From: Methylobacter sp.
GTDB taxonomy: Bacteria; Pseudomonadota; Gammaproteobacteria; Methylococcales; Methylomonadaceae
Assembly (NCBI GenBank): GCA_026399025.1
Contig: JAPLRU010000063.1
Span: 1 to 55,571, forward strand
Length of the DNA: 55,571 nucleotides
Direction: 5' to 3'
Shown here: positions 17,858 to 54,581 of the stretch, one piece after another
Layout of the letters: the number at the start of each line of letters is the position of its first letter
Numbering within the stretch: position 1 is the stretch's first letter
Position numbers and translations under genes: made by a program
The notes under the pieces: model-generated
Told to the model about the DNA's origin: nothing
The model's input: only the letters and a program-made list of their open reading frames with translations
Database searches by the model: none

Positions 17858-17872
17858 CGGAACTATCCTCAA

Positions 17873-29028: not shown

Positions 29029-29029
29029 A

Positions 29030-31073: not shown

Positions 31074-31080
31074 CGCCTTT

Positions 31081-31629: not shown

Positions 31630-31991
31630 TGCGTTCGCCTATTTTATTTCCTGACATACTCGGAGAAAAGCCGGAGGCGGAGGGTATTGTTTTGGCTTTG
31701 CGAATCCCCGAAGGCTTGGCTTATTTTAGCGGCCACTTCGATGAAGTCGCTATCGTGCCGGGCGTAACGCAAATCCAATGGGCGGTGCATTACGCCCGGC
31801 AATACTTAGCGCTGAATCGCATCTTCAGCCACATGGAAGTCGTCAAATTCAAAGAATTATTATTGCCGGGGCAACGTTTGGAGCTGACTTTGGATTATCA
31901 GCGGACCGGCTGCAAATTAAACTTTTGTTACCGTTCGGAAACCACCGAATACAGCTCAGGTAGAATCTATTTCCATGACGACTCCTTTTAA
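31629..31991 (+). CDS. FabA/FabZ-like dehydratase (ApeI-like)
   Basis: This is a 120-residue hotdog dehydratase from ATG 31629 (TGATG overlap with the membrane protein; a TTG one codon earlier is in frame). The active-site helix region reads YFSGHFDEVAIVPGVTQ (about 32-48), the FabZ-like G-H-F ... P-G-V-x-Q pattern with the catalytic histidine. It probably forms the active hetero-complex with the dehydratase at 26583, as ApeI with ApeP in E. coli. The glycosyltransferase gene starts 17 bases before its end. Confidence 0.86.
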   Translation: MRSPILFPDILGEKPEAEGIVLALRIPEGLAYFSGHFDEVAIVPGVTQIQWAVHYARQYLALNRIFSHMEVVKFKELLLPGQRLELTLDYQRTGCKLNFCYRSETTEYSSGRIYFHDDSF

Positions 31992-33677: not shown

Positions 33678-34090
33678 TCCGGGCCGAAGTGGAGTTGATC
33701 GTGCCCTTCCATGATGTCGACATGCTCGGCATCGCTTGGCATGGGCATTATTGCAAATATTTCGAAATCGCCCGTTGCGCGATGCTGGACAAGATCGATT
33801 ACAACTACATGGTGATGAAAGCCACCGGCTACGTCTGGCCTATTGTCGATTTGCAAATGCGTTTTGTCCGACCGGCGAAATTCAATCAACGCATTCGGGT
33901 AAGGGCGGAATTGGTGGAGTGGGAATACCGGATGAAAATAAAATACCTGATAAGCGATGCCGAAACCCATGAAGCGCTGGTCAAAGGGCATAGCATTCAA
34001 GCGGCCGTGGATGCGGTCACCGGGGAAATGAGCTATGCCTCGCCGGCTGTTTTTCTGCAACGTCTCGGCATCGACGACGATGTCTGTTAG
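33674..34090 (+). CDS. Hotdog thioesterase (4HBT/ApeK-like)
   Basis: This is a 138-residue single-hotdog thioesterase. The active-site region PFHDVDMLGIAWHGHYCKYFE (HDxDxxG then a conserved H-x-x-Y) at about 11-30 carries the catalytic aspartate (D15 or D13) of the 4-hydroxybenzoyl-CoA thioesterase family. It may hydrolyse stalled or finished chains from the ACP. It overlaps the preceding gene by four bases and the TSUP gene by 11. Confidence 0.88.
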   Translation: MIRAEVELIVPFHDVDMLGIAWHGHYCKYFEIARCAMLDKIDYNYMVMKATGYVWPIVDLQMRFVRPAKFNQRIRVRAELVEWEYRMKIKYLISDAETHEALVKGHSIQAAVDAVTGEMSYASPAVFLQRLGIDDDVC

Positions 34091-35232: not shown

Positions 35233-35796
35233 ATGCTTAGAAAAACCACGATTTTGACCCTGCTTGGCCTAACGGTTTTATTGGGCGCGTGCAGTCAACA
35301 ATTAAAACCCAACGAACTGGTTGCGGGCATCCAGCCCGGACGGATTTACTATACGCAATTCAGCCTGTTTCAAGAAAATAATAATTTTCGCACCACCAAT
35401 TACCGTAAAGGCACGTTGATTCCGGTCAACACAGCGCTGACCCTGCTGACCATCAGCGCCGATAAGGCTGAACTCAAACTCATGGAAACAGGCCAAGCTC
35501 TTACCCTGGAAAACGTCCCCAAATTCACCAAGGACGACATGCAAACAGCCTTTAAAAAAATCGTCGGATTAAACAAGGTTAATCTACAACCGTTTACGCC
35601 TGCCGAGCAGGACGGCATTCTGACCGGGAAAGTCAAAAAAGACATGAGCAAAAAAGCCGTTTTAACGGCCATTGGCTACCCGCCTCAACATGTAACTCCG
35701 TCACTGTATGCCAACGACTGGACTTATTGGTCGAATATCTTTAACCGTTTCGTCGTGCATTTCAATAATGACAAGGTTGTTAACATTGTCGACTAA
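35233..35796 (+). CDS. Polyene-locus lipoprotein 1 (BamE/SmpA-like C-terminus)
   Basis: This 187-residue lipoprotein starts at ATG 35233 (agga site 8 bases upstream; ATG at 35227 is also in frame). The signal peptide ends in the lipobox LLGAC. The C-terminal half (from about 135) has VKKDMSKKAVLTAIGYPP, the 'xGMsxxxVxxxlGxP' pattern of the SmpA/BamE/OmlA fold, and a WTYWSN then HFNNDKVVNI ending. It probably sits in the outer membrane and helps place the pigment. Its gene overlaps the following halogenase-like gene, the same pairing as at 54749/55162. Confidence 0.74.
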   Translation: MLRKTTILTLLGLTVLLGACSQQLKPNELVAGIQPGRIYYTQFSLFQENNNFRTTNYRKGTLIPVNTALTLLTISADKAELKLMETGQALTLENVPKFTKDDMQTAFKKIVGLNKVNLQPFTPAEQDGILTGKVKKDMSKKAVLTAIGYPPQHVTPSLYANDWTYWSNIFNRFVVHFNNDKVVNIVD

Positions 35797-37102
35797 TGCC
35801 GCGATTCCCAGCCGTTGCGACGTCCTGGTCATCGGCGGCGGCCCGGCCGGTTCCAGCGTCGCGGCCTTGCTGGCGAAAAAAGGCGTGGACGTGGTGTTAT
35901 TGGAAAAAGCCTCTCACCCGCGTCCTCAGGTTGGTGAAAGCCTGATCCCGCATTTTTGGAAATACGCCGACCAAACCGGGGTGTCGCCGCTGCTCGAACA
36001 AGAAGGCTTTGTCGCCAAAGCCGGAGGCATCACGGTTTGGAACGATAAAATCAGCCGTATCGCGTTCTCCGAATTCGGTTTCACCCGCCCCGCCTTGCAT
36101 GTGGAAAGGGATGTTTTCGACCGATTGTTGCTCAAACACGCCGAAAGCCTGGGCGTGACGGTTTTTCAGCAAGTCGCCGCCCAAGCAGTCGAGTTAGGTT
36201 TGGACTTGCCCAAAGTAAATTACTCTGATCGACGCGGGGAGGATGCGAATGCAGGCAGCATCGTTTGCCGCTACGTGATTGACGCCGGCGGGCCGGCGGC
36301 GCTTCTTGCCGGACAGTTTAAAGCCAAGCGGCTGATAGACTCGCGGATGCGCTTCCTGTCGCTTTGGGGGTATTTTAAAAACTCCCGTTTTGTCGCCGCC
36401 GACGGACGTAGTTATCCGGCGGAAGATGTCGGCAAAGTCCGCCCCGTTACTTTCGTCACCTCTTTTGAAGACGGCTGGATTTGGCATATCGCAATGCGCA
36501 AATTGACCAGCGTGGGCCTGGTCATTAACACCGACCGCGCCCGCGCGATGGACAAGGAAGGCCGCGAACGCTATTTTTTAAACACCTTGAAGTCCGCGCC
36601 CTACCTCGACCGGCTACTGGCAAACGCCGAGTACGCGGAAGATTCCTACTGCGAAAGGCCGGACTATTCCTATTACTCCACCCGGTTGTGCGGAGAAAAT
36701 TTTTATTGCATAGGCGATGCCGCCTCCTTCGTCGATCCTATCTATTCCCACGGGGTGCTGAATGCTTTTTACAACGCATCGATGACCGCGTTGGCGGTGT
36801 CCGAATCCCTTAAAGATCCTGCTTATCGCGTTCGTTATGCCCAGCTTTGCGAGAACCGCATTCGGCAGTTTTACGGATTTTCGCGCTCGCTGGCGTTGGG
36901 CGAATTCGGCGGCGACGGTGTCGATGCAACATTGGTGCAACGCTTCATGCGCCAAGTGCCGCCGGTAGAGTTGGAACTGATGCTGGCCGCCTCGTCGATG
37001 TCCGAGCGCTCGGAAAACTTCCATCGCTTGGTGCGCGACGCAAAACTCAAGCTTCACCCGGCAAGAGCCGGAGCGCATCTGATGGAGGCGTTGCTGCTTT
37101 AA
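35768..37102 (+). CDS. Flavin-dependent halogenase-like protein 2
   Basis: This is a 444-residue FAD protein. ATG 35768 is taken as start although a TTG at 35786, with aagg 9 bases before it, is a real alternative. It has GGGPAGSS at about 23-30, GESLIPHFW near 56-64 and K84 in FVAKAGGITVW at the catalytic-lysine place. The signature tryptophan motif reads WIWHIA near 235, so the final proline of W-x-W-x-I-P is replaced by alanine. GDAASFVDPIYSHGV follows near 315. It is probably a halogenase-family enzyme or a flavin monooxygenase derived from one. It is the last gene of the left arm, closed by repeat D. Confidence 0.75.
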   Translation: MTRLLTLSTNAAIPSRCDVLVIGGGPAGSSVAALLAKKGVDVVLLEKASHPRPQVGESLIPHFWKYADQTGVSPLLEQEGFVAKAGGITVWNDKISRIAFSEFGFTRPALHVERDVFDRLLLKHAESLGVTVFQQVAAQAVELGLDLPKVNYSDRRGEDANAGSIVCRYVIDAGGPAALLAGQFKAKRLIDSRMRFLSLWGYFKNSRFVAADGRSYPAEDVGKVRPVTFVTSFEDGWIWHIAMRKLTSVGLVINTDRARAMDKEGRERYFLNTLKSAPYLDRLLANAEYAEDSYCERPDYSYYSTRLCGENFYCIGDAASFVDPIYSHGVLNAFYNASMTALAVSESLKDPAYRVRYAQLCENRIRQFYGFSRSLALGEFGGDGVDATLVQRFMRQVPPVELELMLAASSMSERSENFHRLVRDAKLKLHPARAGAHLMEALLL

Positions 37103-39535: not shown

Positions 39536-39727
39536 GGTTCCCAAGCTCCAGCTCTCGTCTTTACACACAAGTCTGTTCAAGACGGGACGTAGGCCGGAAT
39601 AAGCCCGCCCGGCGATAGCCAGGGTGGGCGTTTCCGGCATTTCGAAGCCTCGGAAGCCGGAAACGCCACCTCGCGCTACGCGCTTGGATGGCCTTATTCC
39701 GGCCTACTTCCGGAGCTTGGGAACCAG
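39536..39727. repeat. Nested palindromic MITE-like repeat E
   Basis: The inner terminal repeats gtaggccggaataag (39589-39603) and cttattccggcctac (39693-39707) are exact complements. Inside, gtgggcgtttccggc and gccggaaacgccacc also pair. Outer arms ggttcccaagctcc (about 39536) and ggagcttgggaacc (about 39713) pair again, so one element seems inserted in another. It is the only content of the 337-base gap between the methyltransferase and the VapB gene. Confidence 0.82.
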
Positions 39728-39789
39728 CGCAATGTCTTTTTGCTATAGCGAAATCATCAATAACTCAAATCTCTGTGAGGAATTCCCAA

Positions 39790-39993
39790 ATGAAAGCTAC
39801 CATTTCCCTAGACAACGCCGTACTGGAGCAATTATTGGCGTACACCAAAGCCAAAACCGCCAAGGAAAGTATTGCCAAGGCCATTGAAGAATACATCCGC
39901 TATCAGCAACGCCAGGAATTGCTTAACTGTCGGGGGTCGGTGGAAATAGATGACAACTGGCAGCAATTGCGCGAACTGGAACGGCCGCAATGA
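39790..39993 (+). CDS. VapB-type antitoxin
   Basis: This 67-residue protein starts at ATG 39790, preceded by a gagga site. The N-terminal ribbon-helix-helix MKATISLDNAVLEQLLAYTKAKT(A)KESIAKA is split by the usual turn, with a C-terminal acidic tail (DDNWQQLRELE) for toxin binding. This is the pattern of VapB antitoxins that regulate VapBC operons. It overlaps the toxin ATG by four bases. Intact. Confidence 0.82.
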   Translation: MKATISLDNAVLEQLLAYTKAKTAKESIAKAIEEYIRYQQRQELLNCRGSVEIDDNWQQLRELERPQ

Positions 39994-40413
39994 CGCGAGT
40001 GTTGATCGACACCTGCGCCTGGATTGATTTTTTTTAAATCGAAAACCGGCGCTTTGGGCAATCTGGTTGCCGAGTTGATCGAAACCAACCAAGCCGCGAT
40101 TACCGGCGTGGTCATTGCTGAGTTACTGCAAGGCGTAAAACAGGAAAAGGAAAGCCGGCGGCTACGCGTATTGTTTCACTCGATTTATTATTTGCCAACC
40201 GAAGATAATGATTGGTTCGATGCTGGACAGCTTGCCCAACAATTGCGAGCCAAAGGCATAACCTTGCCGCTGACCGACATATTAATCGCGGTGATTGCCC
40301 AACGCTATGCCCTACCGGTTTTAACCCTGGACAAACATTTTCAACACCTTCCGGTGAATAGTTTTGGTGGGTTTAAAAAGTTCACACTCGCATCAAATCA
40401 TTTGACAATATGA
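39990..40413 (+). pseudogene. VapC (PIN-domain) toxin frameshifted in an eight-T run
   Basis: ATG 39990 gives MTRVLIDTCAWIDFF and then TAA at 40035, directly after a run of eight Ts (40028-40035). With seven Ts the frame would continue into FKSKTGALGNLVAELIE and on to a complete PIN domain ending at 40413, with VIAELLQGV, LPLTDILIAV and LTLDKHF. The acidic residues of the first strand and of ELLQG and TDILIA form the VapC nuclease site. The gene is thus one base out of frame. Phase variation, mutation or a sequencing artefact all fit. Confidence 0.85.
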
Positions 40414-42745: not shown

Positions 42746-43585
42746 TCAATTTGCATTTTCGCCAGCCGGTATCGGAAGCGCCTCACGTAGGGTCACCGGC
42801 CGCAGCTTCGCGGCGCTAACAGCATCCAGCAAGGAGGGCAGTACTTCAAGGATGACCGGCCTGCCTGCCGCTGTCCGGGCGGCATTGCCGTCGTGCAGCA
42901 ATAGAATGTCGCCGGCCTTCAGACCGTTCAACAGTTTTGCCAATACCATTTGGGGATCTTTCTCGATGGTATCAAAACCCCGGCGGGTCCAACTGGTCAG
43001 TTGCAGACCTAGGCGATTAAGCACGGGGTCCAATAAAGGATTGCGCAAGCCCGCCGGGGCGCGGAAAAAGCGAGGGCGGGTGCCGGTGATCGCGGTCAAT
43101 AGTTGTTGGGCGGCGGTCAGTTCCGAAAAATAGCCTCCGAGCAATAATAAGGCAAAGCCATGGCTATGCTTCATGCTGTGATTTTCCACAGCATGGCCCC
43201 GCTCTGCGATTTCCTTGCACAAGTCCGGGTGGCGTTGCGCTTTTTCGCCGATGCAGAAGAAAGTCGCTTTCACGCCGTGGCGGTCGAGCAGGTCGAGAAC
43301 GGCGGGAGTCACTTCAGGGTCGGGGCCGTCGTCGAAGGTGAGCGCAATTTCGCCTCTTGCGACCGAAGTTTGGGGCAGGGCGGTCCAGTTTGAGCCCAAT
43401 AGACTACAGCGCGGACAAAGTCCGGCAACAGTCAACGGCACATGGACGAGGGCAATGACAGCCGCAGCCCAGGGCCAGATGTCGGGGCGTATCGCTATGG
43501 CCGTTACCGACGCTGCGATCAGCAGAAGGCCTGTCTTGACCATTAGCGTGGGTCGCCAATGACCCTTGGAATAGAGAGATTTCAT
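42746..43585 (-). CDS. Membrane-anchored polysaccharide deacetylase (NodB family)
   Basis: This 279-residue protein has two N-terminal hydrophobic segments (about 15-32 and 37-56), then a NodB domain. It carries TFDDGPDP (metal aspartates) near 83-90, HSMKHSH (zinc histidines) near 138-144, RFFRAPAG near 171 and a C-terminal LLLHDGNAA. It deacetylates N-acetyl groups of a polysaccharide or lipid-linked sugar, probably facing the periplasm. It lies in the same minus-strand direction as the proline/pyrrole cassette but is separated by 278 bases with a repeat. Its place in the pigment pathway (sugar head-group trimming) is a guess. Confidence 0.88.
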   Translation of the reverse strand: MKSLYSKGHWRPTLMVKTGLLLIAASVTAIAIRPDIWPWAAAVIALVHVPLTVAGLCPRCSLLGSNWTALPQTSVARGEIALTFDDGPDPEVTPAVLDLLDRHGVKATFFCIGEKAQRHPDLCKEIAERGHAVENHSMKHSHGFALLLLGGYFSELTAAQQLLTAITGTRPRFFRAPAGLRNPLLDPVLNRLGLQLTSWTRRGFDTIEKDPQMVLAKLLNGLKAGDILLLHDGNAARTAAGRPVILEVLPSLLDAVSAAKLRPVTLREALPIPAGENAN

Positions 43586-43863: not shown

Positions 43864-44979
43864 TCACGGTTTGCCGGGTAAGCCGCTACCCCGGTAAGCT
43901 TCGCCGGTGCCGAGCAGGGCGGCGATAAGGTTTTTCTGCACTTCCGAACTGCCGGAAAACAGCCGTCCGGCCAAGGCGTCTTGCACTAAATCGGCCATCG
44001 CGCTGTCTTGTTCCAAGGCTGCCGCGCCCATGATCTGCACGGCGTCCAGGCTCGATTGCAAAAACGCTTCGGCGGCGTAGAGCTTGGTTTGCGCCGAGGC
44101 TAAAGTCAGCCGTTGACCGGCATCGCAAAGCCGGGCGCATTCTCTCAGCCACAAGTCGGTGGTATCCAGCCGCAGTTTCATGTCCGCGATACGATGAGAA
44201 ATTGCCTGATGACGGCCTAAATGAACGCCGCCGGAGCGCCTTTCCCGGCTATGGCGCACGGCTTCGGATAACTGCCATGCCATGATTCCGGCAATGCCTG
44301 CAAACACGAAGGCGCGTTCGTATTCCAAGGCTTTCTGGATCATCTGCGTTCCCGCTCCGGCTTTGCCCAACAGGCGTGCGCCATCGAGTCGACAATCCTC
44401 CAACATAACGCTCCCGGTGACGCTGCCTTGGCAAGCGTCCAAAGCCCCGGCGCGGCTGAATTTACAACCGGCATCATCGCGGGAAACCAGGAAAGCGCTG
44501 ATCTTCCCCTCAAGTTTGACATAAACCACCAGCCAATCCGCCAAGGGAACATTGGTGATGTAGCGTTTTTCGCCGTTCAAGACGAAGCCTTCGTCATTTC
44601 GTTCGGCGCAACTGGTCATGGCCTGCACATCGGAACCGCAACACGGTTCGGTGATAGCATGTCCGCCCAGCCATTGCCCTGCCAGCAGCGGCGGCAAAAA
44701 CTGTTGCCGTTGCCGCTCGTCCCCGTACAGCAAAATAGGGAATAGCGCTCCCCACACATGGGCATTCACCATCAGCATCAAGCCGGGATCGCGGCAGGCT
44801 TCGCCTAAGCTGCGGTGGCTCCGGTACAGATTGGCGAAGTCATCGCCATAGCCGCCGAAGCGCTCGGGCAGCGCATGGCGCAAGAGACCTTTAGCCGCGA
44901 CAGCTTGAAAACGGGAGAGGATTAATGTCTCGTTGCTGGGTTTGACGTAAGGCGGGACATCGGCAAATTCGGGATTCAT
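43864..44979 (-). CDS. Acyl-CoA dehydrogenase-like flavoenzyme, candidate prolyl-PCP dehydrogenase
   Basis: This 371-residue protein starts at the ATG at 44979, overlapping the ligase stop (ATGA). The order is an N-terminal helical domain with RHALPERFGGYGDD, the middle domain with HAITEPCCGSDVQAM (FAD-contact motif) and the C-terminal four-helix domain with VQIMGAAALEQDSAM and GSSEVQKNLIAALLG. Size and the neighbouring stand-alone A and PCP genes match PltE/RedW, which oxidise prolyl-S-PCP to pyrrolyl-2-carboxyl-S-PCP. An ordinary acyl-ACP desaturation is the alternative. The upstream in-frame extension to 45423 lies inside the ligase and is not believed. Confidence 0.82.
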   Translation of the reverse strand: MNPEFADVPPYVKPSNETLILSRFQAVAAKGLLRHALPERFGGYGDDFANLYRSHRSLGEACRDPGLMLMVNAHVWGALFPILLYGDERQRQQFLPPLLAGQWLGGHAITEPCCGSDVQAMTSCAERNDEGFVLNGEKRYITNVPLADWLVVYVKLEGKISAFLVSRDDAGCKFSRAGALDACQGSVTGSVMLEDCRLDGARLLGKAGAGTQMIQKALEYERAFVFAGIAGIMAWQLSEAVRHSRERRSGGVHLGRHQAISHRIADMKLRLDTTDLWLRECARLCDAGQRLTLASAQTKLYAAEAFLQSSLDAVQIMGAAALEQDSAMADLVQDALAGRLFSGSSEVQKNLIAALLGTGEAYRGSGLPGKP

Positions 44980-46409
44980 GGTTGCGTCTCCAGCAAGGCG
45001 CGCACTTGGCGGTAATCCAGCTTGCCGTTGGGCAGGCGGGGCAGTTGTTCCAACACGATGCAGCGGACAGGTTGCATATAGGACGGCAATTGCCGGATCA
45101 GTGCGCTGCGGATTTCGGCGAGCGGCGTTTGGGATTCCAAGACTAAAGCCAAGGCCGGGCGCTGTCCGGCGGCAGGGTCGTCGATACCGACTACGGCACA
45201 GTCTATAACGCCTGTCATGGCATTGACCACGGCTTCGATTTCCGCCGGTTCGACCCGATACCCTGAACATTTGAGCATACGCCCAAGTCTGCCGTGGAAA
45301 CGGTATTCGCCATTGGCTAGAGTCACGCGGTCGCCGGTGGGATACCAACCGGCTTCGTTTAAAAAAGGCTGCAATCGGCCTTGATTCCAATAGCCGCTGG
45401 CAAGGCCGGGGCCTCGCGCCCACAGTTCGCCGGTTTCGTCATGCGTATGAAGTTCGTAATTCGCGGCAGGTAAGCCGATAGGGATGTTGTCGTCTGCGCT
45501 CAAGCGCTCGCGCTCCACCGGCCAATAACAACACACATTGGTTTCAGTGGGACCGAAAAAATTGTAAAGCGCCGTCCGGGGCAAGCAGGTAGCCAGGTTT
45601 ATCAAGGCCGGAGCGGGAAATACTTCGCCTGCGAAGATTAAAAAGCGCAAGGACTCTAAAGGCGTTTGCGCCAAATTGCCTTTATAAGCCAGAAAAGCCA
45701 GTAGGGAAGGGACGGTGTACCAGCCGTTGATGGCATGGTGTTGCAGCCAAGCGCTGAGACGGGCCGGGGCCAGATTCAGCGAAGCGGGGATGAAATGCAG
45801 GCTGGCGCCCGCTCCCAAAACGGCATAGAGATCGAAGGTGGACAGGTCGAAAAAAAACGGTGCGCTAGCGGCGATGCGGTCATTGTTTTGCAATGCAAGC
45901 AAGTCCGCGGCCCATCGCGCAAAAGACGCTATCGCGCCATGGCTTAGAGCCACGCCGCGCGCTTGGCCGGTGGAGCCGGAGGTGTAAAGTATGGCGGCCA
46001 AGGTATCGGCTGAAGTTTCGACCGGTTTTAAGGAGTCCTCAGCACAGGCAGCGATGTCCAGCCACAAGTTTGCAGCCAGCCAAGCGGGAGCGGCGCCTAA
46101 GCCCACTATCGCATGAACCCTGGCGTCGTCGATAATAGAGGCTAGCCTTGGCTTTGGGTTTTTTAAGTCCAGCGGGACGTAGCAAGCACCGGCCAGCAGT
46201 ACGCCGAATAGGGCAATCACCGCATCGATGCCCCGATCCAGATGAACGGCGACAGGTCGGCCCGGTTGAACGCCCAGTCCTTGCAAACCGGTGGCAACGG
46301 ATTGCGCGCGCGCCAGTAAATCGCCGTAGGACAGGTAACGGTCGTTTTCCACCAAGGCCACGGCTTCGGGCCGACGTCGGCATTGTTGCAGAAAAGGTTG
46401 CAGCAGCAT
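44976..46409 (-). CDS. Stand-alone adenylation enzyme, candidate L-prolyl-AMP ligase (PltF/RedM-like)
   Basis: This 477-residue NRPS-type A-domain enzyme has no fused carrier domain. Core motifs are AILYTSGSTGQARGVALSH (about 138-156), FDLSTFDLY, NFFGPTETNVCCYW, GELWARGPGLASGYW, YPTGDR, and the C-terminal PNGKLDY catalytic lysine. In the A4-A5 region D-L, then V-C after GPTETN, and K occupy specificity positions that, as I recall, agree with part of the proline code of PltF. That is suggestive, not proof. It lies between the condensation-like gene (3-base gap) and the dehydrogenase. Confidence 0.84.
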   Translation of the reverse strand: MLLQPFLQQCRRRPEAVALVENDRYLSYGDLLARAQSVATGLQGLGVQPGRPVAVHLDRGIDAVIALFGVLLAGACYVPLDLKNPKPRLASIIDDARVHAIVGLGAAPAWLAANLWLDIAACAEDSLKPVETSADTLAAILYTSGSTGQARGVALSHGAIASFARWAADLLALQNNDRIAASAPFFFDLSTFDLYAVLGAGASLHFIPASLNLAPARLSAWLQHHAINGWYTVPSLLAFLAYKGNLAQTPLESLRFLIFAGEVFPAPALINLATCLPRTALYNFFGPTETNVCCYWPVERERLSADDNIPIGLPAANYELHTHDETGELWARGPGLASGYWNQGRLQPFLNEAGWYPTGDRVTLANGEYRFHGRLGRMLKCSGYRVEPAEIEAVVNAMTGVIDCAVVGIDDPAAGQRPALALVLESQTPLAEIRSALIRQLPSYMQPVRCIVLEQLPRLPNGKLDYRQVRALLETQP

Positions 46410-46412
46410 CGG

Positions 46413-47696
46413 TCAGGCCTCGGCGTTGTCCAGTAATTCAATGTCCATTTGCGCGATCACCGCGTCCAGCCAAGCCTCGTCCACTGCCGGGGATAGGTAG
46501 TTGTAGGATAAGGTGAGCCGACCATCTAATTGTCCGGCCAGCAGAGCCAGACCCGGCGGCAATGTCATCCAGCACAAATGGAACATGCCGGTAACGGGGA
46601 TGCCGAGAAAGCCTTTGTTTGCCCAAGACAGGTCGCCGATGTCGGAAAACCACAGTGAACTCAATTCGCCGCCGCTGTGTTGTTTGCGCAATATTTTGGC
46701 GTAGCGGGCCGGAGACAGCCATTGGCCCAGCCGCATCAGTGTTAAATAGGCCATATCCAGCTCTTCCCGCACCACCTGCTTATGCTGCGCCAGCAAATGC
46801 TCGAACAAACCTTGCCGATCCCGCACTTGATCACGGGCGGCGCGGGCGAACAGACAGCCGACGTGGTTGCCGAATACGGGGGTCGGGGCATTTTGGCGAC
46901 GCAAGTTGAATGCGTAAGGAATGCAATAACCGGCCTTGGCGACGGGCGGCCCCACCTGTTCCACGGCCCGCATGAAGCAGCCGAGATAATATAGGGTTCG
47001 CCCGGCCAAGCCGGTGTGTTGCTGGGCGAGTTTGGCGATTTGCCGGGACTCGTCCTCGCTAAAGTGCCGCACTTTGACTTGCAAGCTTTGCGGGCCTTGT
47101 TCCTGTTGTGTCGGCAAACAGCTATCCAGGCGGTTGACTTCCCTGTTGTGCCGCTTGGCCTTGATGAACAGACGGCATTTTTTCCAGAAACTCCATTGCG
47201 CCAGCTTGGCTTCAATTAAAGACGGCGATTCCTTAAAGCTTTCGGGGCGGTCGGAAACGAGAAAATCCAATACGATGTTTACGCCGCGGGCATCCAGCAA
47301 CGGATGAATCCAAACCAGCAGCAAAGTCCCGCCCGTTCCCCAGGCGATCCAATGCAGGGTTAGCGGCAAGGCATTTTGGCGGTTAAGGATGTCCAATTGG
47401 ATGCGCCGGGCTTCTTCTTTGCTATCGTCATTCTGTTGGCATTGATGGCGTTCCAACGCGATCTGCTGTCCCGTCGGCTGCCAAGCGTAGCGCTTGCCTT
47501 GGCGCTCGATGCGGGCGGACGCGACGGGGAAACGTTCCACCAAAAGATCCAGCCGCTGTTGCAGGCAGGTTAAATCAGGCGGTTCGGCCAGTTCCAGCGC
47601 AAAGCCGCAATAGCCGCCGGGCAGGCCGATAGTGCGGATTTCCTGATCGAGCACGAAGGTGAAATAGTCGGCGGGATTGAACAACGTTTGTTTCAT
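46413..47696 (-). CDS. Condensation-domain-like HxxxD acyltransferase
   Basis: This 427-residue protein starts at ATG 47696, overlapping the PCP stop by four bases. An ATG at 47723 is in frame but would lie within the PCP gene. The order is an N-terminal CAT-like subdomain with IHPLLDAR near 140, giving the second histidine and the aspartate of HHxxxDG (the first His is Ile, the Gly is Arg-shifted). A C-terminal subdomain follows with FSDIGDLSWAN, the D-x-x-x latch-like region, near 365. It is likely to move an acyl group from the PCP to a nucleophile, such as an ACP thiol, amine or alcohol. It has no carrier domain. Confidence 0.74.
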   Translation of the reverse strand: MKQTLFNPADYFTFVLDQEIRTIGLPGGYCGFALELAEPPDLTCLQQRLDLLVERFPVASARIERQGKRYAWQPTGQQIALERHQCQQNDDSKEEARRIQLDILNRQNALPLTLHWIAWGTGGTLLLVWIHPLLDARGVNIVLDFLVSDRPESFKESPSLIEAKLAQWSFWKKCRLFIKAKRHNREVNRLDSCLPTQQEQGPQSLQVKVRHFSEDESRQIAKLAQQHTGLAGRTLYYLGCFMRAVEQVGPPVAKAGYCIPYAFNLRRQNAPTPVFGNHVGCLFARAARDQVRDRQGLFEHLLAQHKQVVREELDMAYLTLMRLGQWLSPARYAKILRKQHSGGELSSLWFSDIGDLSWANKGFLGIPVTGMFHLCWMTLPPGLALLAGQLDGRLTLSYNYLSPAVDEAWLDAVIAQMDIELLDNAEA

Positions 47697-47935
47697 TGTT
47701 GTTGGCCCGATGCTTTTATCCATTGTTCGAGTGCGTTTAAACTGTGGACATTATCCGGTTCGATTTCCGTATCCGGCAGCGTCACGCCGAACGCTTTTTC
47801 GGTGAACATGATCAGGCGCATGATGCCCAAGCTGTCGAGCCCCGCCTCCAACAGGTCGGCGTCATCGCCGAAAGAAGCGGGATCTTCATGGTAAATGAGT
47901 TCGGAGAAGATGAATGTTTTCAGTTTTTCTTTCAT
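47693..47935 (-). CDS. Stand-alone peptidyl carrier protein (PltL/RedO-like)
   Basis: This is an 80-residue carrier protein with the phosphopantetheine serine S35 in EAGLDSLGIMRL. The D-S-L rather than D-S-I sets it apart from the three ACPs of the locus (all DSI) and agrees with NRPS-type PCPs. It is the first gene of a four-gene coupled set (PCP, HxxxD, ligase, dehydrogenase). It should hold the proline/pyrrole unit. The 165 bases upstream to the methyltransferase gene hold the likely ribosome site but no recognised promoter. Confidence 0.87.
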   Translation of the reverse strand: MKEKLKTFIFSELIYHEDPASFGDDADLLEAGLDSLGIMRLIMFTEKAFGVTLPDTEIEPDNVHSLNALEQWIKASGQQQ

Positions 47936-48100: not shown

Positions 48101-48607
48101 TTAGGCGGAATCCGGGGTGAACGCGCGGAAAGTAAAATTCCAGCGCGGCACGGTTCGGCAGTAATCGCTATAAGACGCGCCAAACCGGCGATGCAGAACG
48201 GGCTCCTCGTAAAAGACCACGAAGATATGGAAAACGCCGGCGATTAAAACGGTGTACAGTGAAAGACCGCGATCAAGAAACAACACGCTCTCGCCCACAA
48301 GAATAAGCAGGATGCCTTGATACATCGGGTTGCGAAAGCGCCGATACAATCCGGTCACGACCAGTTTTTTCGGCGGATCAATAGGGGCGGGTGTGCCTAA
48401 GCCCTTGACCGCGAAGTCCCAGGCGCAACGGAGGTAAATGGCCGTTCCGATCAGGATGCAGGCGGCAGCGGGAATCGATAGGGCTAAACCGGCTATTTGC
48501 AGGTTGCCGCCTGTGCGGGAAAGCAGCGAATAGGGAAAGTAAAGGGTCACAGCGCCGGGGACGAGGAGGGTGAAAAGCATGACTTTGACAGCCAGAAGAA
48601 AACGCAT
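48101..48607 (-). CDS. Isoprenylcysteine-type membrane methyltransferase (ICMT/PEMT family)
   Basis: This is a 168-residue integral membrane protein from ATG 48607 (an ATG at 48685 would add 26 polar residues upstream). There are about four hydrophobic segments (near 4-22, 38-60, 102-120 and 122-140). The family motif GLYRRFRNPMYQG (about 85-97) and VFYEEPVLHRRFG-SYSDYCRTVPRW near the end are SAM-binding/active-site marks of ICMT-like enzymes. It probably methylates a carboxylate or lipid head in the pigment product. It is oriented with the pyrrole cassette, opposite to the ACP operon. Confidence 0.82.
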   Translation of the reverse strand: MRFLLAVKVMLFTLLVPGAVTLYFPYSLLSRTGGNLQIAGLALSIPAAACILIGTAIYLRCAWDFAVKGLGTPAPIDPPKKLVVTGLYRRFRNPMYQGILLILVGESVLFLDRGLSLYTVLIAGVFHIFVVFYEEPVLHRRFGASYSDYCRTVPRWNFTFRAFTPDSA

Positions 48608-48692
48608 GTATCGGCCTGTTGGGATGGGGAGAATGAAGGGGTTGAATTCGCAACGATTCTGACATTTCCCGGTAGCCCAATTCAAGCGCTTT

Positions 48693-48750: not shown

Positions 48751-49014
48751 ATGTCAGATGACTTGATCGTCCAATTGAAAACCATGCTCATCGAAGGTTT
48801 ACGCCTTGAAGACATCATGCCCGAGGACCTTTCCCCTGATGCCGCTTTATTCAGCGGCGGCTTAGGTTTGGATTCCATCGACGCCCTGGAAATAGGCGTT
48901 ATGCTGGATCGTCAATACGGCATCAAAATCACTTCCGGCGACGAACGTAACAATCGGATTTTTGTCTCCCTGCGCTCATTGGCGGAATTCGTCGCTACCC
49001 ATCGCACCCGTTAA
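48751..49014 (+). CDS. Acyl carrier protein 3
   Basis: An 87-residue ACP with S42 in GGLGLDSIDALEIG, closely like ACP 1 at 30562. aagg lies about 10 bases before the ATG. First gene of the right-arm plus-strand operon; the membrane protein follows after 2 bases. Confidence 0.93.
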   Translation: MSDDLIVQLKTMLIEGLRLEDIMPEDLSPDAALFSGGLGLDSIDALEIGVMLDRQYGIKITSGDERNNRIFVSLRSLAEFVATHRTR

Positions 49015-49016
49015 AT

Positions 49017-49637
49017 ATGGGTAATCTTGTTAAGACAGTCGGCATCGTCTTTATTATCATCGCTTATCCCTTCCTCAGTTCTTATTTAGCCGCGCAAGGC
49101 TATGCCAACCTGGAGTTGCTGGTGTTTGCCGCGTTGACGCTATGGCGCGGGCTTCATGCGAAAATGCCGGCTTTACGCGTCGGCAGCTTCTTGTTTGCCG
49201 CTTTGTTGCTGGTCGGTGCGTATTTCGCCCATGCCTATTTTATCTGGCTGGTTCCCTCGTTTGCCTATTTGTGGCTGACGGTTCTATTCGGGCATACGTT
49301 ATGGATGCCGCCTTCTCTATGCGAACGCTTGGTGCGTTTGCAATACCCGGATTTTATACCCGGCATTGCGGAGTACCTGCGCGAAGTGACTTGGGCATGG
49401 ACGTTGTTTTTCGCCGCGAATACAGTGATTTGCGCGTTGCTGCCAACGCTTGCCGGACCCGGCGCATGGGCCCTTTATACCGGGCTGCTTGTTTATGGAC
49501 TGATGGCCTTGCTGGGCGTTGGCGAATGGTTCTATCGGCGCCGGCGCTTTCCCGATCTCGATATTCCCCCTCTAGTGGAGACGTTCACTTTCATGGCAAA
49601 ACACGGCCACAAGGTATTCCAAGGAGAGCGGTCATAA
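49017..49637 (+). CDS. COG4648-type polytopic membrane protein, copy 2
   Basis: This is a 206-residue inner-membrane protein with about five hydrophobic segments and the family's central block MPPSLCERLVRLQYPDF ... REVTWAWTLFF, the same as in the copy at 31081. It is longer than copy 1 by a C-terminal polar extension. Both copies directly follow an ACP gene, which suggests a partnership with ACP. Its reaction is unknown. Confidence 0.78.
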   Translation: MGNLVKTVGIVFIIIAYPFLSSYLAAQGYANLELLVFAALTLWRGLHAKMPALRVGSFLFAALLLVGAYFAHAYFIWLVPSFAYLWLTVLFGHTLWMPPSLCERLVRLQYPDFIPGIAEYLREVTWAWTLFFAANTVICALLPTLAGPGAWALYTGLLVYGLMALLGVGEWFYRRRRFPDLDIPPLVETFTFMAKHGHKVFQGERS

Positions 49638-49660
49638 ATGATTGTCCGAACAGCACGCGG

Positions 49661-50320
49661 ATGACGCCGAATTATCACTATCCGCGTTCTGTTATAAAAC
49701 TCGCTCTCTGCTTGCTATTAGCGTTATTGCCTAGGCCGGGATTTTGCAATGAAACCGAATTGCAGACTTTACTCGGACGCATCCGGCAAAACGCCTCGGC
49801 CGAGTTCCATTACCAGGAAATCCGTCAACTGGAATTAGCCTCTTCCCCTTGGCAAGGCGAAGGCAGCATGTTGTCCGGCGCGGACGGCAGCTTGATCAAA
49901 CTGCAACTGCAACCCACGCGGGTCATTATGGCTATCGCCGAAGGCCACATGTATTACTGGGATCCCGAACAACAGCAGCGCCATACCGCGCCCTTAGGCC
50001 AATCGGGGCAAGGGTCCGAACTGATCACGGTATTCGTCGCCATTTTGCAGGGACATGCCGACGACTTGAAGTCGAGCTATGATTTTATCCCGGAACAGCA
50101 CGGCAAGCGTTGGACCTTGCGCTTGACGCCTAAGCCGGAGCCGGGCAATGAGGACGCGCCGACAATCGAAATCTCAGGGGACGAAGATGAACGTAAACAA
50201 CACGTTTTAATCCGCCAAGCGGATGGCGAATCCACCGAATACCGCTTGATCAAGACTGCCGAAGGTCAGCCATTGGATGAGGCTATCCGGCGCTTGCTGC
50301 GGGAAGCCATCGGAGATTAA
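49661..50320 (+). CDS. LolA-like outer-membrane lipid/pigment carrier (ApeL-like)
   Basis: This 219-residue exported protein starts at ATG 49661 (the longer in-frame ORF from 49142 lies in the membrane-protein gene). The signal peptide is hydrophobic about 10-25. The mature part resembles LolA: ASAEFHYQEIRQLELASSPWQGEG strand region near 44-67, MAIAEGHMYYWDPEQQQ near 90 and AEGQPLDEAIRRLL at the end. In aryl-polyene clusters such carriers accept the pigment from the MMPL exporter for delivery to the outer membrane. The MMPL gene follows after 3 bases. Confidence 0.78.
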   Translation: MTPNYHYPRSVIKLALCLLLALLPRPGFCNETELQTLLGRIRQNASAEFHYQEIRQLELASSPWQGEGSMLSGADGSLIKLQLQPTRVIMAIAEGHMYYWDPEQQQRHTAPLGQSGQGSELITVFVAILQGHADDLKSSYDFIPEQHGKRWTLRLTPKPEPGNEDAPTIEISGDEDERKQHVLIRQADGESTEYRLIKTAEGQPLDEAIRRLLREAIGD

Positions 50321-50323
50321 CGG

Positions 50324-52636
50324 ATGTCTTTGGTATGGAGAAAGCGCTGGTTTCTGGTTTTGTTGCCCTTGCTGGTGGCGGTAACCGTTTGGCAAATCCG
50401 CATCGAATCCGATCTGAACGCTTTTTTTACCGCCGGCGACAATGAAGACTCAAAGCTGCTGTCCGGCTTATTGCAATCGGGCGAGCTGTCGCGCCGCTAT
50501 CTGCTGGTGGTGGAACAAGCCAATATTCCAAATGAAGCTCATTCAACGTCCTTAGACGCGTTCAGCGCCAAGCTGGTTTTGCAACTGGCGCGGATCGAAG
50601 GCGTGGAACAGGTGTGGCCCGCTAACCAACCTCCTCGCGAGTGGATCGATGCGCTCGGTTCTTACGCCCCCTATCATGCCCGCCTGTTTAGTCTAAACCC
50701 GATGGAAGACGGGCGCGAGCTGTTCGATCCCGTCGGCTTGAGCCATCGGGCCGAAGGTCTCAAACAGGCTTTGCTTTCGCCTCAGGGCGGCTTCGTCAAA
50801 GCCGTCGCCAAGCAGGACCCTTTGCTGCTATCGCTAAATGGTTTCAAGGACTTGAAAGGCCAGTTTGAGCGCCAAGCCGAGTTGGACAGCGGCGGTGCGT
50901 TGATTTTGCAAAGCCGTCCGGCCGCCTTGGATTCGGATGCGCATTTGCGCCTACAAGCCGCCATCCGCGCAAGCTTCGATAGCTTGAACCAGAGCTCAGG
51001 CGGCCTGTTCCGGCTGTCGATGGCCGGGGTGCCGGTTTTCAGCGCAGCGGCTCACGGCGAGATCAGTCAGGACGTCACTTTGGTTTCGGTGGTGTCCAGT
51101 GTGGCGGTGGCTGTGGTATTTTTGCTGCTGTTCCGCTCTTTTTCCGCGCTGCATTGGGTCATGATGGTGCAAATCGCCTCCTTTGTTGTCGGCGCTTTGG
51201 TAACGGCTCTAGTTTTCGGCACTGTCCATAGCTTGACCTTGGCTCTGGGCGGGAGTTTGATCGGCATCTGCACCGATTATCCTATCCATGTGATGGTGCA
51301 TTGCGCAAAACATCGCAATTCCCCACTGGATGCCGCCCGGCTGCTATGGCCCAGCCTGGTCTTGGGCGGTTTGACCACCATCATCGGCTATGCGGCCTTG
51401 GGGCTTACCGGATTTCCGGGCTTCGAGCAAATCGCTATTTTCGCCTTGGCCAGTATTACCGCTTCCTTAGGACTGACCCGCTGGGTGCTGCCCGCCTTGC
51501 TTGCTCATTCTTCCCTGCATGTCGCCCATTTGCCCGGTATCGCCGCCTGGGTCGGTTTTTGCGCCCGCCGCCGCACGCTTTTGCTGGGTTTGTTGGCCGC
51601 CTGTGTGGTGCTGGCCGGGCTGGCTTTGCCGCAAACGCGTTGGATGAACGACATGCAAAAACTGGCGCTGAACATGGATCGGTTAAAGCAGCAGGACGAG
51701 GCGGTCCGCAGCCATTTTGCCGGTATCGAACCGGGGCGATTTGTGTTGGTTCAGGCCGATGATTTGGAAACCGCGCTTAGACGCAGCGAAGCGGCCGAGC
51801 GCCGCTTGAAGCAGTTGAAGCAAGCCGGGATCTTAACCGAATATCACGGCTTGTTTCCCTGGCTGGTTTCACAAGAGTTGCAGCATGACAACGTCCAAGT
51901 TTACGCCCAGGCATTAACCCCGCACTTTCAGGAGGCTTGGCGGGCGGCCTTGGTCAAAGCCGGGCTTTCGGTGGACAAGCTCGGCCAACTGTCGCCGCCT
52001 GCCGCACAGCCGCTAGAACCAAAAGACGTTCTGGCCTCGCCGGTGCGCCATATCCTGAGCGGGCAGATGATCGAGGGCCAAAAAGGCGTGGCCTTGACGC
52101 TCTGGCTGGGCGAGCACGATCCGCAAAAGCTGGCCGAAGGTTTGGCGGGCTTGGCGGGGACGCGTTACTTCAGTCAAAAAGATCAGCTGGATCGCTTGGC
52201 CTCGTTATACCGGGACAGATCCTTAGTCATGCTGGCCTTAGGCATCGTCGTCATGGGGCTGTTCATTTGGCTGCAACAACGCAATATCGCTAAGGTGCTG
52301 TTGACCTTGTTGCCCACACTCGCCTCTATTCTATTCATTTTCGCTATCTGGGCGCTGATCAAGGAGGAAGTGAGTTTTCTTCATATCATCGGCCTCTTGC
52401 TGTCGGTTTCCTTATGCGTCGATTACGGTATATTTTTCATGGATAATCGCGGTCGGGATTCGGACATAACCTATCATGCTCTCGCCTCGTCCACTTTGAC
52501 GACCTTGGCTTCATTCGGAGCTTTAGGCTTAGGCAAAACGCCGACATTACCTATACTGGCGCTGTCAGTGAGCCTGGGAGTTACCTTGGGATTTTTGCTA
52601 TGCCCGTTGCTGATTCAAAAGCCAAGTCTGAAATGA
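50324..52636 (+). CDS. MMPL/RND-family exporter (ApeM-like)
   Basis: This is a 770-residue inner-membrane transporter with a single N-terminal membrane segment (about 9-24) followed by a periplasmic domain. Two blocks of about five segments follow, each with the RND proton-relay D-Y: GICTDYPIHVM near 308 and SLCVDYGIFFMDN near 700. The second periplasmic domain lies between about 440 and 615. It exports hydrophobic conjugates, here most likely the polyene or its glycolipid. The gene overlaps the next ketosynthase by four bases. Confidence 0.9.
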   Translation: MSLVWRKRWFLVLLPLLVAVTVWQIRIESDLNAFFTAGDNEDSKLLSGLLQSGELSRRYLLVVEQANIPNEAHSTSLDAFSAKLVLQLARIEGVEQVWPANQPPREWIDALGSYAPYHARLFSLNPMEDGRELFDPVGLSHRAEGLKQALLSPQGGFVKAVAKQDPLLLSLNGFKDLKGQFERQAELDSGGALILQSRPAALDSDAHLRLQAAIRASFDSLNQSSGGLFRLSMAGVPVFSAAAHGEISQDVTLVSVVSSVAVAVVFLLLFRSFSALHWVMMVQIASFVVGALVTALVFGTVHSLTLALGGSLIGICTDYPIHVMVHCAKHRNSPLDAARLLWPSLVLGGLTTIIGYAALGLTGFPGFEQIAIFALASITASLGLTRWVLPALLAHSSLHVAHLPGIAAWVGFCARRRTLLLGLLAACVVLAGLALPQTRWMNDMQKLALNMDRLKQQDEAVRSHFAGIEPGRFVLVQADDLETALRRSEAAERRLKQLKQAGILTEYHGLFPWLVSQELQHDNVQVYAQALTPHFQEAWRAALVKAGLSVDKLGQLSPPAAQPLEPKDVLASPVRHILSGQMIEGQKGVALTLWLGEHDPQKLAEGLAGLAGTRYFSQKDQLDRLASLYRDRSLVMLALGIVVMGLFIWLQQRNIAKVLLTLLPTLASILFIFAIWALIKEEVSFLHIIGLLLSVSLCVDYGIFFMDNRGRDSDITYHALASSTLTTLASFGALGLGKTPTLPILALSVSLGVTLGFLLCPLLIQKPSLK

Positions 52637-53835
52637 CCAAGCCTTTACCTATCCCGCCTGTTGCCGTCACAGCCTACCAGTGCGTCAGCGCCGCCGGGGA
52701 CGACGTGGAGGCTTTGTATAATAGCCTGATTGCCAACCGTAGCTGTCTGCAACCGTTACGCTTATTCGACATTCCGTTCAAAACCGTGGTCGGTGAGGTC
52801 GCGACGCCTTTGCCGCATATTCGCGCCGGTCTTAAGGCTTATGATTGCCGCAACGCAAGACTGGCGTTGAAGGCGTTGAATCAAGGTCGGTTTCGAACCG
52901 ATGTGGAACGGGCAATCGCCGATTACGGCTCCTTGCGCGTTGGGCTGGTGTTAGGCACCAGCACCTCGGGCATCTACGATTCCGAAAACGCCTATGCTCA
53001 TCTCCTCAGTCACGGAATCATGCCCGGCGATTTTCATTTCCTGCAAATTCAAACCGCCCAAGCGACTGCCGAGTTTCTGCACCATGAACTGAAATTGCAA
53101 GGGCCTTGCTACGGCATTTCCACTGCCTGTTCCTCCAGTGCCAAAGCTTTGGGCGCGGCGCAAAGATTGATCGCCGCCGATTTTTGCGACGCGGTGTTGG
53201 TTGCCGGTGTGGATAGCTTGTGCCGCTTGACCTTGCGCGGTTTCCACAGCTTGCAGTTGATCTCGCAGGAAGCGTGTCGTCCTATGGATGCTAATCGTCG
53301 GGGTATCAACATCGGCGAGGGCTCGGCCTTGCTGCTGCTGGAACGTCAAAGCGCAGCTAACGCCGCCTGTCTACGGCTACTGTCGGTAGGCGAATCCTCC
53401 GATGCCCATCACATGAGCGCACCGCATCCGCAAGGCGCGGGGGCCGCCTTGGCGATGGCTCACGCGTTGCGTCTGGCGGGCCGGGATTTAAACGATGTCG
53501 ATTACATCAATCTGCACGCCACCGCCAGCACCCTCAACGATCTCTCCGAGGCCAAGGCCATAGCCGGTTTGTTCCCAAATCCGCCGCCGTGCAGCGGGGT
53601 GAAAGGTTTGCTCGGTCATACGCTGGGTGCGGCAGGCGCGGTGGAAACGATAGTCAGCCTGCTGGCCCTGGAACGGGGTTTCTTGCCGGGCACCTGTGGC
53701 TTGGCGCAAGCCGATCCGGACTGTCCATGCCCGGTCATCGTGGCGCCGCGTTTGGAGAGGGCGCCTAAGTTGGTATTGAGCAATGCTTTCGGATTCGGCG
53801 GCAACAACGCCAGCGTCTTGCTGGAGGCGGCTTGA
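52633..53835 (+). CDS. Beta-ketoacyl-ACP synthase (ApeO-like), copy 2
   Basis: This 400-residue ketosynthase starts at ATG 52633, coupled to the exporter stop (ATGA); an ATG at 52600 is also in frame. The triad is complete: C166 in STACSSSAKA, a histidine in NLHATAS (with A in place of the usual G) and a histidine in LGHTLGAAGA. Like copy 1 it has YDCRN and GTSTSGIYDSE. It probably pairs with the chain-length-factor-like protein encoded next. A second complete KS/CLF pair implies a second substrate range or starter. Confidence 0.88.
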   Translation: MTKPLPIPPVAVTAYQCVSAAGDDVEALYNSLIANRSCLQPLRLFDIPFKTVVGEVATPLPHIRAGLKAYDCRNARLALKALNQGRFRTDVERAIADYGSLRVGLVLGTSTSGIYDSENAYAHLLSHGIMPGDFHFLQIQTAQATAEFLHHELKLQGPCYGISTACSSSAKALGAAQRLIAADFCDAVLVAGVDSLCRLTLRGFHSLQLISQEACRPMDANRRGINIGEGSALLLLERQSAANAACLRLLSVGESSDAHHMSAPHPQGAGAALAMAHALRLAGRDLNDVDYINLHATASTLNDLSEAKAIAGLFPNPPPCSGVKGLLGHTLGAAGAVETIVSLLALERGFLPGTCGLAQADPDCPCPVIVAPRLERAPKLVLSNAFGFGGNNASVLLEAA

Positions 53836-54581
53836 TGGACTGCATGAGTTTACTGGGCTTCGGCGCTTGCTCCCCCGATCCCGAATTTCGGGCGCGGCTG
53901 CCGTTTCCTGTGTATGACATCGACCGCGATGCGATTCCGCCGCTGTTGCGCCGTCGCAGCAGCCAAGCGACGCAAATGGCGTTTAGCGCGGCGACACTGG
54001 CCTGTACACAGGCGCAACGCTCAGCCGCAACCCTCCCGTCGGTGTTTGCCAGCGTGGCCGGTGAAATCCGGACCACCGATCAGCTTTGCACCGAACTGGT
54101 TAGGCCCGACGGCGTTATTTCCCCCAGTGTTTTCCACAATTCCGTGCAGAATACCGCGGCCGGTTATTGGACTATCGCCCAACAATGTCTCCAGCCCGCA
54201 GCAGCCTTGGCGGCAGGAGCCGACACTTTTGCGATGGCTCTACTGGAAGCGTGGTGTCAATTGGCTTGCCTTGGGGGGGAGTTGCTGCTGGTTGGCTATG
54301 ATGAAAGCCTACCGAAATACTTGGCCCCCGGTTTGGCCGAACCCGCTTTCGCTTGCGCCTTGGTTTTGGCGGCCGGTGCGGTAGAAGGCCGTATTTTACA
54401 GATCGGCCGGCCTCGGCCGGGAGCTGAAGCTTTTCCACCGGATTGGCAATCCCTGGTCGCCGACAGGCCGGTTTTGTCGGCTATTCCTCTGCTCGGTTTG
54501 GCTGCGTCCGGAGCGGAGGCGCAAAATATACCGGTTTCTCCGCTTACATCGGGTTGGCAGGTTAAGATAAGTCCGCCATAG
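53835..54581 (+). CDS. Ketosynthase-like chain-length-factor subunit (ApeC-like), copy 2
   Basis: This is a 248-residue protein of the short KS-N-terminal-like family, starting by TGATG overlap with the ketosynthase. It has PSVFASVAGEIRTTDQL and FHNSVQNTAAGYWTI near 100-114, where an active ketosynthase carries its cysteine. No catalytic triad is seen. It shares the fold pattern of the protein at 29030 but is well diverged. It should be the partner of KS copy 2, perhaps controlling chain length. Confidence 0.74.
   Translation: MDCMSLLGFGACSPDPEFRARLPFPVYDIDRDAIPPLLRRRSSQATQMAFSAATLACTQAQRSAATLPSVFASVAGEIRTTDQLCTELVRPDGVISPSVFHNSVQNTAAGYWTIAQQCLQPAAALAAGADTFAMALLEAWCQLACLGGELLLVGYDESLPKYLAPGLAEPAFACALVLAAGAVEGRILQIGRPRPGAEAFPPDWQSLVADRPVLSAIPLLGLAASGAEAQNIPVSPLTSGWQVKISPP

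Follow-up and report, generated by a model that had tools for sequence, protein, structure and literature searches.

Within a stretch of 55,571 nucleotides from a Methylobacter species (Gammaproteobacteria; Methylococcales; Methylomonadaceae; GenBank assembly GCA_026399025.1, contig JAPLRU010000063.1, positions 1 to 55,571 of the forward strand), referred to here as the window, our analysis characterized a four-gene module that may convert L-proline to pyrrole-2-carboxyl-S-PCP on a stand-alone peptidyl carrier protein (PCP) and deliver this group to an aryl-polyene product, a reading drawn from sequence comparison to which we give a probability of roughly 55%. This window belongs to a contig of 93 kb in a 5.2 Mb genome, termed the own genome in comparisons where other genomes, loci or tree rows, and genera are labelled G, L and g. 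All four genes lie on the minus strand and encode the PCP (47693–47935; PF00550), a predicted condensation-superfamily-like acyltransferase (46413–47723), a stand-alone L-proline-type adenylation enzyme (44976–46409; PF00501 and PF13193) and a prolyl-carrier-type dehydrogenase of the acyl-CoA dehydrogenase kind (ACAD; 43864–44979; PF02771, PF02770 and PF00441), for which the open reading frame (ORF) call begins at 45423 and the ATG kept in relatives, at 44979, was taken as the start. The PCP and condensation-like genes overlap by 31 bp, a 3 bp gap precedes the adenylation gene, and the adenylation and ACAD genes overlap by 4 bp. An earlier note, made from the sequence alone, had described four overlapping or near-touching genes inside an aryl-polyene-type pigment locus, and both descriptions were confirmed, as all four genes are real and the surrounding core operon, ApeH-like ligase and exporter genes are those of such a locus. 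New in this analysis are the finding that 44 of the 151 family genomes carry the module, a flavin-halogenase-family enzyme that tracks it across these genomes, and a sister module.

Strong sequence evidence points to L-proline as the acid that the adenylation enzyme activates and transfers to the PCP, which would be the first step of the proposed pathway. Its best stand-alone matches in the Protein Data Bank (PDB) were the L-proline--[L-prolyl-carrier protein] ligases 7thn (253 bits) and 6o6e (216 bits), ranked below multi-domain nonribosomal peptide synthetase (NRPS) chains with two matched stretches; we take 7thn to be PigI and 6o6e to be PltF, and the 6o6e entry also contains PltL. The specificity pocket was read from alignments at positions presumed to follow the numbering of GrsA, giving DLFYIAFVC in the window, DLFYIAWVC in 7thn and DLLYLALVC in 6o6e, with nine positions readable and the final Lys of DLFYIAFVC(K) falling outside the printed alignment. 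The window pocket differs from that of 7thn at one of these nine positions and is of the proline/pyrrole type; the earlier note had proposed this code as a check, and no code for another amino or aryl acid was found. The pattern D L F Y [I/L/F] A [F/L] V [C/S] was present in all 29 module adenylation enzymes read, 20 of them distant (48–54% identity to the window's enzyme), and its last position was C in 27 of the 29. The PCP carries a phosphopantetheine serine in the motif AGLDSLGIM, and 34 of 35 PCPs read had G[LM]DS[LM]GIM, the exception (L067) having GLNSIGIM; its PDB matches were weak and to several carriers, PltL and the carrier chain of 6cxt included, with 2my5 the best at 35 bits.

In the second step the ACAD would oxidise prolyl-S-PCP, and the sequence evidence for an enzyme of this type is also strong; oxidation may then continue to the aromatic pyrrole. 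Against NCBIfam models the ACAD scored 264 bits with PigA and 252 bits with RedW, the next model reaching 152, and its top PDB match was the prolyl-ACP (acyl carrier protein) dehydrogenase 4irn (212 bits), followed by 6cxt (177 bits). In a tree of 25 rows, ten module ACADs and ten prolyl-carrier-type enzymes were split from five fatty-acid-type enzymes (100/99), with the module ACADs forming their own clade on a long branch. The label of prolyl-carrier type in this tree rests on gene neighbours or PDB names; 6cxt, named butyryl-CoA dehydrogenase in the PDB, was counted there on our own presumption, and a Methylocystis row of the same group (L126) is flanked by polyketide synthase and phosphopantetheinyl transferase (PPTase) genes and not by an adenylation-carrier pair. 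A wider tree of 32 rows, with long branches, placed seven fatty-acid rows in one clade (97/93) and one mis-framed row apart; the rows of this tree left out of the smaller one were module rows L002, L057 and L070 (close to others or redundant), an S. clavuligerus row (L123) and fatty-acid rows L129, L133 and L136. Nine plasmid relatives of the ACAD were opened, of which five stood beside an adenylation or AMP-ligase gene plus a carrier gene, one beside polyketide genes, one was an isovaleryl-CoA dehydrogenase and two lay in records without a gene table there. The ACAD is the sole PF00441 match in the own genome, indicating that it does not belong to a beta-oxidation set, and on this ground and the tree split a fatty-acid enzyme was rejected. 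Residue Glu221 was invariant in 16 of 16 sequences and aligns with what we presume to be the catalytic base. Overall, the conversion of proline to an oxidised prolyl- or pyrrolyl-PCP appears well supported by sequence, and the pocket code, the ACAD tree and the nearest solved relatives bore out the view that the adenylation enzyme, PCP and ACAD constitute a proline-activating, ring-oxidising set. A different ACAD-adenylation-carrier set was observed in G025 (L073:3482-6433), with 30–32% identity to the module proteins and without the condensation-like gene.

The order of PCP, condensation-like, adenylation and ACAD genes recurred in L002–L005 with all four genes at 66–90% identity, in L028–L032 at 70–85% identity with extra genes between them in some, and in other genera at 37–75% identity (PCP 59–75, condensation-like protein 37–43, adenylation enzyme 48–54, ACAD 52–60), which indicates that the arrangement is not due to chance. 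In the family sample of 151 genomes, orthologues were counted for the condensation-like protein in 42 genomes (at least 36% identity), for the adenylation enzyme in 43 (E up to 1e-111) and for the ACAD in 44 (E up to 1e-150), all three genes occurring in 39 of the 47 genomes that have any of them. A genome with a condensation-like or adenylation orthologue was designated a module genome (44 of 151); the raw search with the condensation-like protein returned 48 genomes, six of them with only the second family described below. All 11 other genomes sampled from the window's own genus lack the module, and an aryl-polyene core gene is present in 10 of these 11. In G094 (L029:12102-19901 and L074) the adenylation and ACAD genes are separated by a locus that by eye resembles a type I restriction-modification system.

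No Pfam or NCBIfam model and no PDB sequence matched the condensation-like protein itself, nor was there a match among plasmids, and the 21 members of its family likewise lacked a Pfam or PDB match (PF00668 in 0 of 21 at E up to 1). Its HPxxDA motif, HPLLDA in the window, has a His and an Asp that are invariant in all 21 aligned sequences, and the first His of the HHxxxDG signature is replaced, giving xHPxxDA. A second family from other methanotrophs (22–25% identity) is homologous over the full length (hhalign 99.8%, 407 columns). WHHxxxDA is present in 8 of 8 of its sequences, and the 4 members scanned all matched PF00668 weakly, below the cut-off (E 4e-5 to 0.013). Because this homologous family matches PF00668, at a level below cut-off, the module protein can be linked to the condensation superfamily, and both families were taken as putative acyltransferases of that superfamily. 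The condensation-like label of the earlier note may hold through the HxxxD motif and the homology to the second family, with no direct match in Pfam, NCBIfam or the PDB. The profile search with this protein covered the family genomes and a class sample; in the class sample matches were found in 4 of 369 genomes, namely the own genome, G010, G209 (full-length, from another family) and G178 (very weak). A scan of genome contigs, which finds close relatives only, yielded four (L002–L005, 66–86% identity) hosted by Methylobacter and other Methylococcales assemblies.

The second condensation family was present in 12 of the 151 family genomes, not in the own genome, and belongs to the sister module. 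In seven loci (L050–L056; for example L055:7313-12873), mostly inside aryl-polyene loci, its protein is accompanied by its own PCP, an FAD oxidoreductase, a halogenase-like enzyme and an AMP ligase; the one such ligase compared with the PDB matched a feruloyl-CoA synthetase best, pointing to an aryl/acyl-CoA type. The sister module adjoins the same core operon, at the place that the pyrrole module takes in other genera (L053–L056 in comparison to L064 and L065), and six of the 12 sister-module genomes have both modules, at a distance of ~18 kb in G086 and ~40–50 kb in G122. As a ligase of aryl/acyl type should bring no amine to its carrier, the acyl group on that carrier is the expected donor for the sister condensation enzyme, and by analogy the PCP-bound group should also be the acyl donor in the pyrrole module. 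The opposite direction, in which a polyene acyl-ACP is the donor, the amine of prolyl-S-PCP is the acceptor and the ACAD acts on N-acyl-prolyl-PCP to give a polyenoyl-dehydroproline amide cap, would correspond to the usual course of NRPS condensation, where an adenylation-PCP pair normally supplies the amine acceptor; we consider it improbable, since the sister carrier would bear no amine and the studied enzymes of the prolyl-carrier ACAD clade use free prolyl-PCP. Under the preferred reading, in which the pyrrole group is the donor, the condensation-like protein would move the acyl group from the PCP to the aryl polyene or to its lipid or sugar anchor as an ester or amide.

The association of the module with aryl-polyene synthesis was assessed with three markers (ApeH, fused ApeH or the core halogenase-like gene). 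Counting genomes as independent, the module was present in 43 of 94 genomes with these markers in comparison to 1 of 57 without them (G045, 75% complete), and the markers were present in 43 of 44 module genomes versus 51 of 107 others. In the stretch read, 18 of 22 and 6 of 12 module loci had one or more aryl-polyene genes for a ketosynthase, reductase or ligase, with the arrangement of module and aryl-polyene genes varying between genera. The window itself contains a stand-alone ApeH-like ligase (22168–23460, minus strand; PF00501), which from its family and distribution is the expected loader of the aryl starter. Of the 151 genomes, 27 have a stand-alone ApeH, and 25 of the 44 module genomes do; the 19 without it had suggested that the module replaces the aryl loader, an idea that was dropped because a fused ApeH (67 of 151 genomes) occurs in 18 of these 19, mostly on other contigs or far off (~19 kb from the ACAD in G089, ~63 kb from the condensation-like gene in G010). 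The canonical loader, in stand-alone or fused form, is thus kept where the module is present, G045 being the only exception, and the aryl-polyene chain would itself be started by ApeH as usual.

These counts did not uphold the suggestion of the earlier note that pyrrole takes the place of the aryl starter, and the argument which it drew from a missing lyase in the locus also fell. According to the accessible text of PMC8253772, E. coli obtains the 4-hydroxybenzoate of its aryl polyenes from UbiC, an enzyme of ubiquinone synthesis; as the acid can come from UbiC, the absence of an aromatic lyase is no evidence against an aryl starter. No aromatic ammonia lyase was found in the own genome with PF00221, and UbiC/chorismate lyase was not searched. 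Of the pyrrolyl polyene or two-starter pathway that had been envisaged, the fallback with two components came closer, whereas replacement of the aryl starter was unsupported, and more generally a starter role for the module is not supported by these comparisons. A second starter would nevertheless be conceivable if the condensation-like protein passed the pyrrolyl group from the PCP to the ACP or ketosynthase (KS) of the aryl-polyene system, so that pyrrolyl polyenes were made beside aryl polyenes: the module adjoins a core operon of KS, ApeP and ketoreductase (KR) genes in several genera, the sister module with its aryl-acid ligase stands at the same place, and a second pair of KS and chain-length-factor (CLF) genes lies in an operon right beside the module in the window. 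We regard this as unlikely, though it deserves to be kept in view, given the retention of ApeH and given that the pyrrolyl starters of pyoluteorin and the prodiginines pass from PCP to KS with no condensation enzyme.

The candidate for a third step is a flavin-halogenase-family enzyme (35708–37102, plus strand) whose PDB relatives include ChlB4, 3e1t, CmlS, 8zop, 5buk, RadH and PltA, with scores from 146 down to 123 bits. It contains GGGPAG, WIWHIA (in which the Pro of WxWxIP is missing) and GFVAKAGG, whose Lys, aligned with one of 3e1t, we take to be catalytic. This gene was present in 37 of 44 module genomes versus 1 of 107 others (Fisher p 5.6e-27, with the relatedness of genomes ignored), and within aryl-polyene genomes in 36 of 43 with the module versus 1 of 51 without. 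Of 15 genera tabulated, 11 contain both module states and seven of these were fully concordant for the halogenase; there was one exception each in g3 and g20, and g12 (4 of 5 module genomes without it) and g23 were discordant. The gene can be far from the module in complete genomes (G010 and G060), as in G010 where the module is at 3.04 Mb and the halogenase at 3.88 Mb. This tracking of the module makes the enzyme a candidate for halogenating the carrier-bound pyrrole, which, from co-inheritance and family, it may do in most species with the module.

An amine acceptor for the transferred group could be made by the neighbouring NodB-type polysaccharide deacetylase (42746–43585, minus strand; PF01522), which lies downstream of the ACAD in the same direction, has NodB as its best NCBIfam match (below cut-off) and carries DDGP and HSMxH motifs; the corresponding gene overlaps the ACAD by 4 bp in L030, L031, L032 and L074. 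NodB followed by NodA provides a model for deacetylation and subsequent acyl transfer, and by this analogy our guess is that the acceptor in the window's species group could be an amino sugar of the lipid anchor whose amine is freed by the candidate deacetylase. In the accessible part of PMC8253772, aryl polyenes are presumed to be attached to an outer-membrane lipid, which may be a glycolipid. Taken further, and only tentatively, type I methanotrophs might produce a new class of outer-membrane pigment lipid, a sugar-anchored aryl polyene whose amine or hydroxyl is acylated with halogenated pyrrole-2-carboxyl by an undescribed family of carrier-dependent acyltransferases, with the sister system attaching an aryl acid.

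A number of observations weigh against the delivery of a pyrrole group to an aryl polyene. The ACAD misses the NCBIfam equivalog cut-offs (500 bits for PigA, 650 bits for RedW) and is not an equivalog of either, belonging only to the same wider group, and the prolyl-PCP dehydrogenase 5zw0 (167 bits) was no better a match than the ordinary acyl-CoA dehydrogenase 2dvl (166 bits). The unmet cut-offs would agree with an ACAD of fatty-acid or amino-acid degradation beside an adenylation enzyme that loads some other amino or aryl acid, but the pocket code, the ACAD tree and the lack of a second PF00441 protein in the genome make this hardly credible. Sequence does not separate a two-electron enzyme of the AnaB type, which we take 4irn to be, from a pyrrole-former, and either pyrroline or pyrrole would fit as the end point. 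Three of the 44 module genomes (G001, G092 and G116) lack an ACAD at E ≤ 1e-150, G001, which is 99% complete, having only a weaker match (1.9e-77), and in G008, G058 and G026 (L070, L071 and L072) an ACAD orthologue occurs without the condensation-like and adenylation genes.

Further points of this kind concern the product. At 4 of 22 and 6 of 12 loci, some of them on short contigs, the stretch read contained no aryl-polyene ketosynthase, reductase or ligase gene; the four (L033, L034, L040 and L044) would suit a separate pyrrole metabolite whose genes are merely neighbours of the pigment genes, which we judge to be a poor prospect in view of the marker frequencies in module and other genomes and of a linkage that recurs in several arrangements. 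The halogenase is absent from 7 of 44 module genomes, of which four belong to a single genus. Pyrrole halogenases do not stand out in its PDB scores, and the enzyme may act on the aryl ring, since xanthomonadin has halogenated aryl head groups (PMC8253772, in the part accessible). Among the loci read, a deacetylase gene next after the ACAD was confined to the window's species group and genus g12.

The module lies between the aryl-polyene core operon (24188–34090, plus strand) and a divergent second operon (48751–54581, plus strand), both assigned from family matches, and the window as a whole contains ApeH, KS/CLF, KR, ApeP/ApeI, ACP and exporter genes. The core operon encodes a halogenase-like FAD enzyme, KS, ApeP, KR, KS, a KS/CLF-like protein, an acyltransferase and two ACPs, and further a small protein, ApeI, a glycosyltransferase, a lipid A-type acyltransferase and a thioesterase. 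The second operon encodes an ACP, two small proteins, an exporter of the MmpL/RND (resistance-nodulation-division) type, KS and a KS/CLF-like protein. In this operon two ORF calls (49017–49637 and 49142–50320) overlap in different frames within 49017–50320; relatives have a gene of ~206 aa followed by one of ~210 aa, and the true start of the second gene is probably near 49690, by estimate. Upstream of the module is a gene for an isoprenylcysteine-carboxyl-methyltransferase-like protein (48101–48685, minus strand; PF04191), which is also found near the module in several genera. A scan of the sequence found 3 promoters in comparison to a mean of 3.7 in shuffled sequence, and 13 terminators in comparison to 9.9. 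Other features observed were a VapB-like antitoxin and PIN-domain gene pair (39688–40413) between the pigment operon and the module, a NifB-like radical SAM/FeMo-co gene with a beta-lactamase-fold/flavodoxin protein (16159–19872) adjoining the pigment locus, and a gene that is ferredoxin-like by eye (15264–15614).

The conservation of the module across these genomes predicts a concrete difference in product within the aryl-polyene class and points to a pigment or pigment lipid still to be found in some methane-eating bacteria. It also suggests a testable function for an orphan protein family, that of the condensation-like protein, and if the pyrrole is the target of the halogenase these bacteria would also make organohalogens. 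In titles and abstract openings, a coverage outside which most subscription journals fall, no pyrrole or proline unit in an aryl-polyene system was found. Surveys of methanotrophs report aryl-polyene clusters without pyrrole or proline detail in their accessible parts (PMC11964084, PMC12810054), and the accessible text of PMC13163355 holds both "pyrrole-2-carboxyl" and "aryl polyene", named apart.

In comparison to known systems, the module resembles the cassettes for pyoluteorin (PltF/PltL/PltE) and the prodiginines (PigI/PigG/PigA and RedM/RedO/RedW) in having a stand-alone proline-type adenylation enzyme with a near-identical pocket, a stand-alone PCP and a dehydrogenase of the same wider group, and the flavin halogenase of pyoluteorin, PltA, is related to the halogenase-family enzyme at 35708–37102. 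It differs from these cassettes in the dedicated condensation-like enzyme of its operon, in an aryl-polyene setting with its own starter ligase, and in ACADs that form a separate clade on a long branch. The aminocoumarin clorobiocin offers another likeness, as CloN3, CloN4 and CloN5 make pyrrolyl-PCP from proline and CloN2 and CloN7 transfer the pyrrole to a heteroatom, and the same sequence of pyrrolyl-PCP formation and dedicated transfer is proposed here; the transferase of the module, however, looks like a member of another superfamily and its acceptor would be a polyene lipid. Like NRPS condensation domains (PF00668), this putative transferase has the invariant His-x-x-x-Asp, with a sister family that matches PF00668 weakly, but unlike them it has no PF00668 match itself and the first His of HHxxxDG is replaced. 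With the ape clusters of E. coli and Xenorhabdus the locus has in common an ApeH-like ligase, KS/CLF, KR, ApeP, ApeI, ACPs, a glycosyltransferase, acyltransferases, a thioesterase and an RND exporter, and in comparison to the functions listed in the partial gene table of PMC8253772 it is distinguished by the pyrrole module, the halogenase-family enzyme that tracks it and the second KS/CLF operon.

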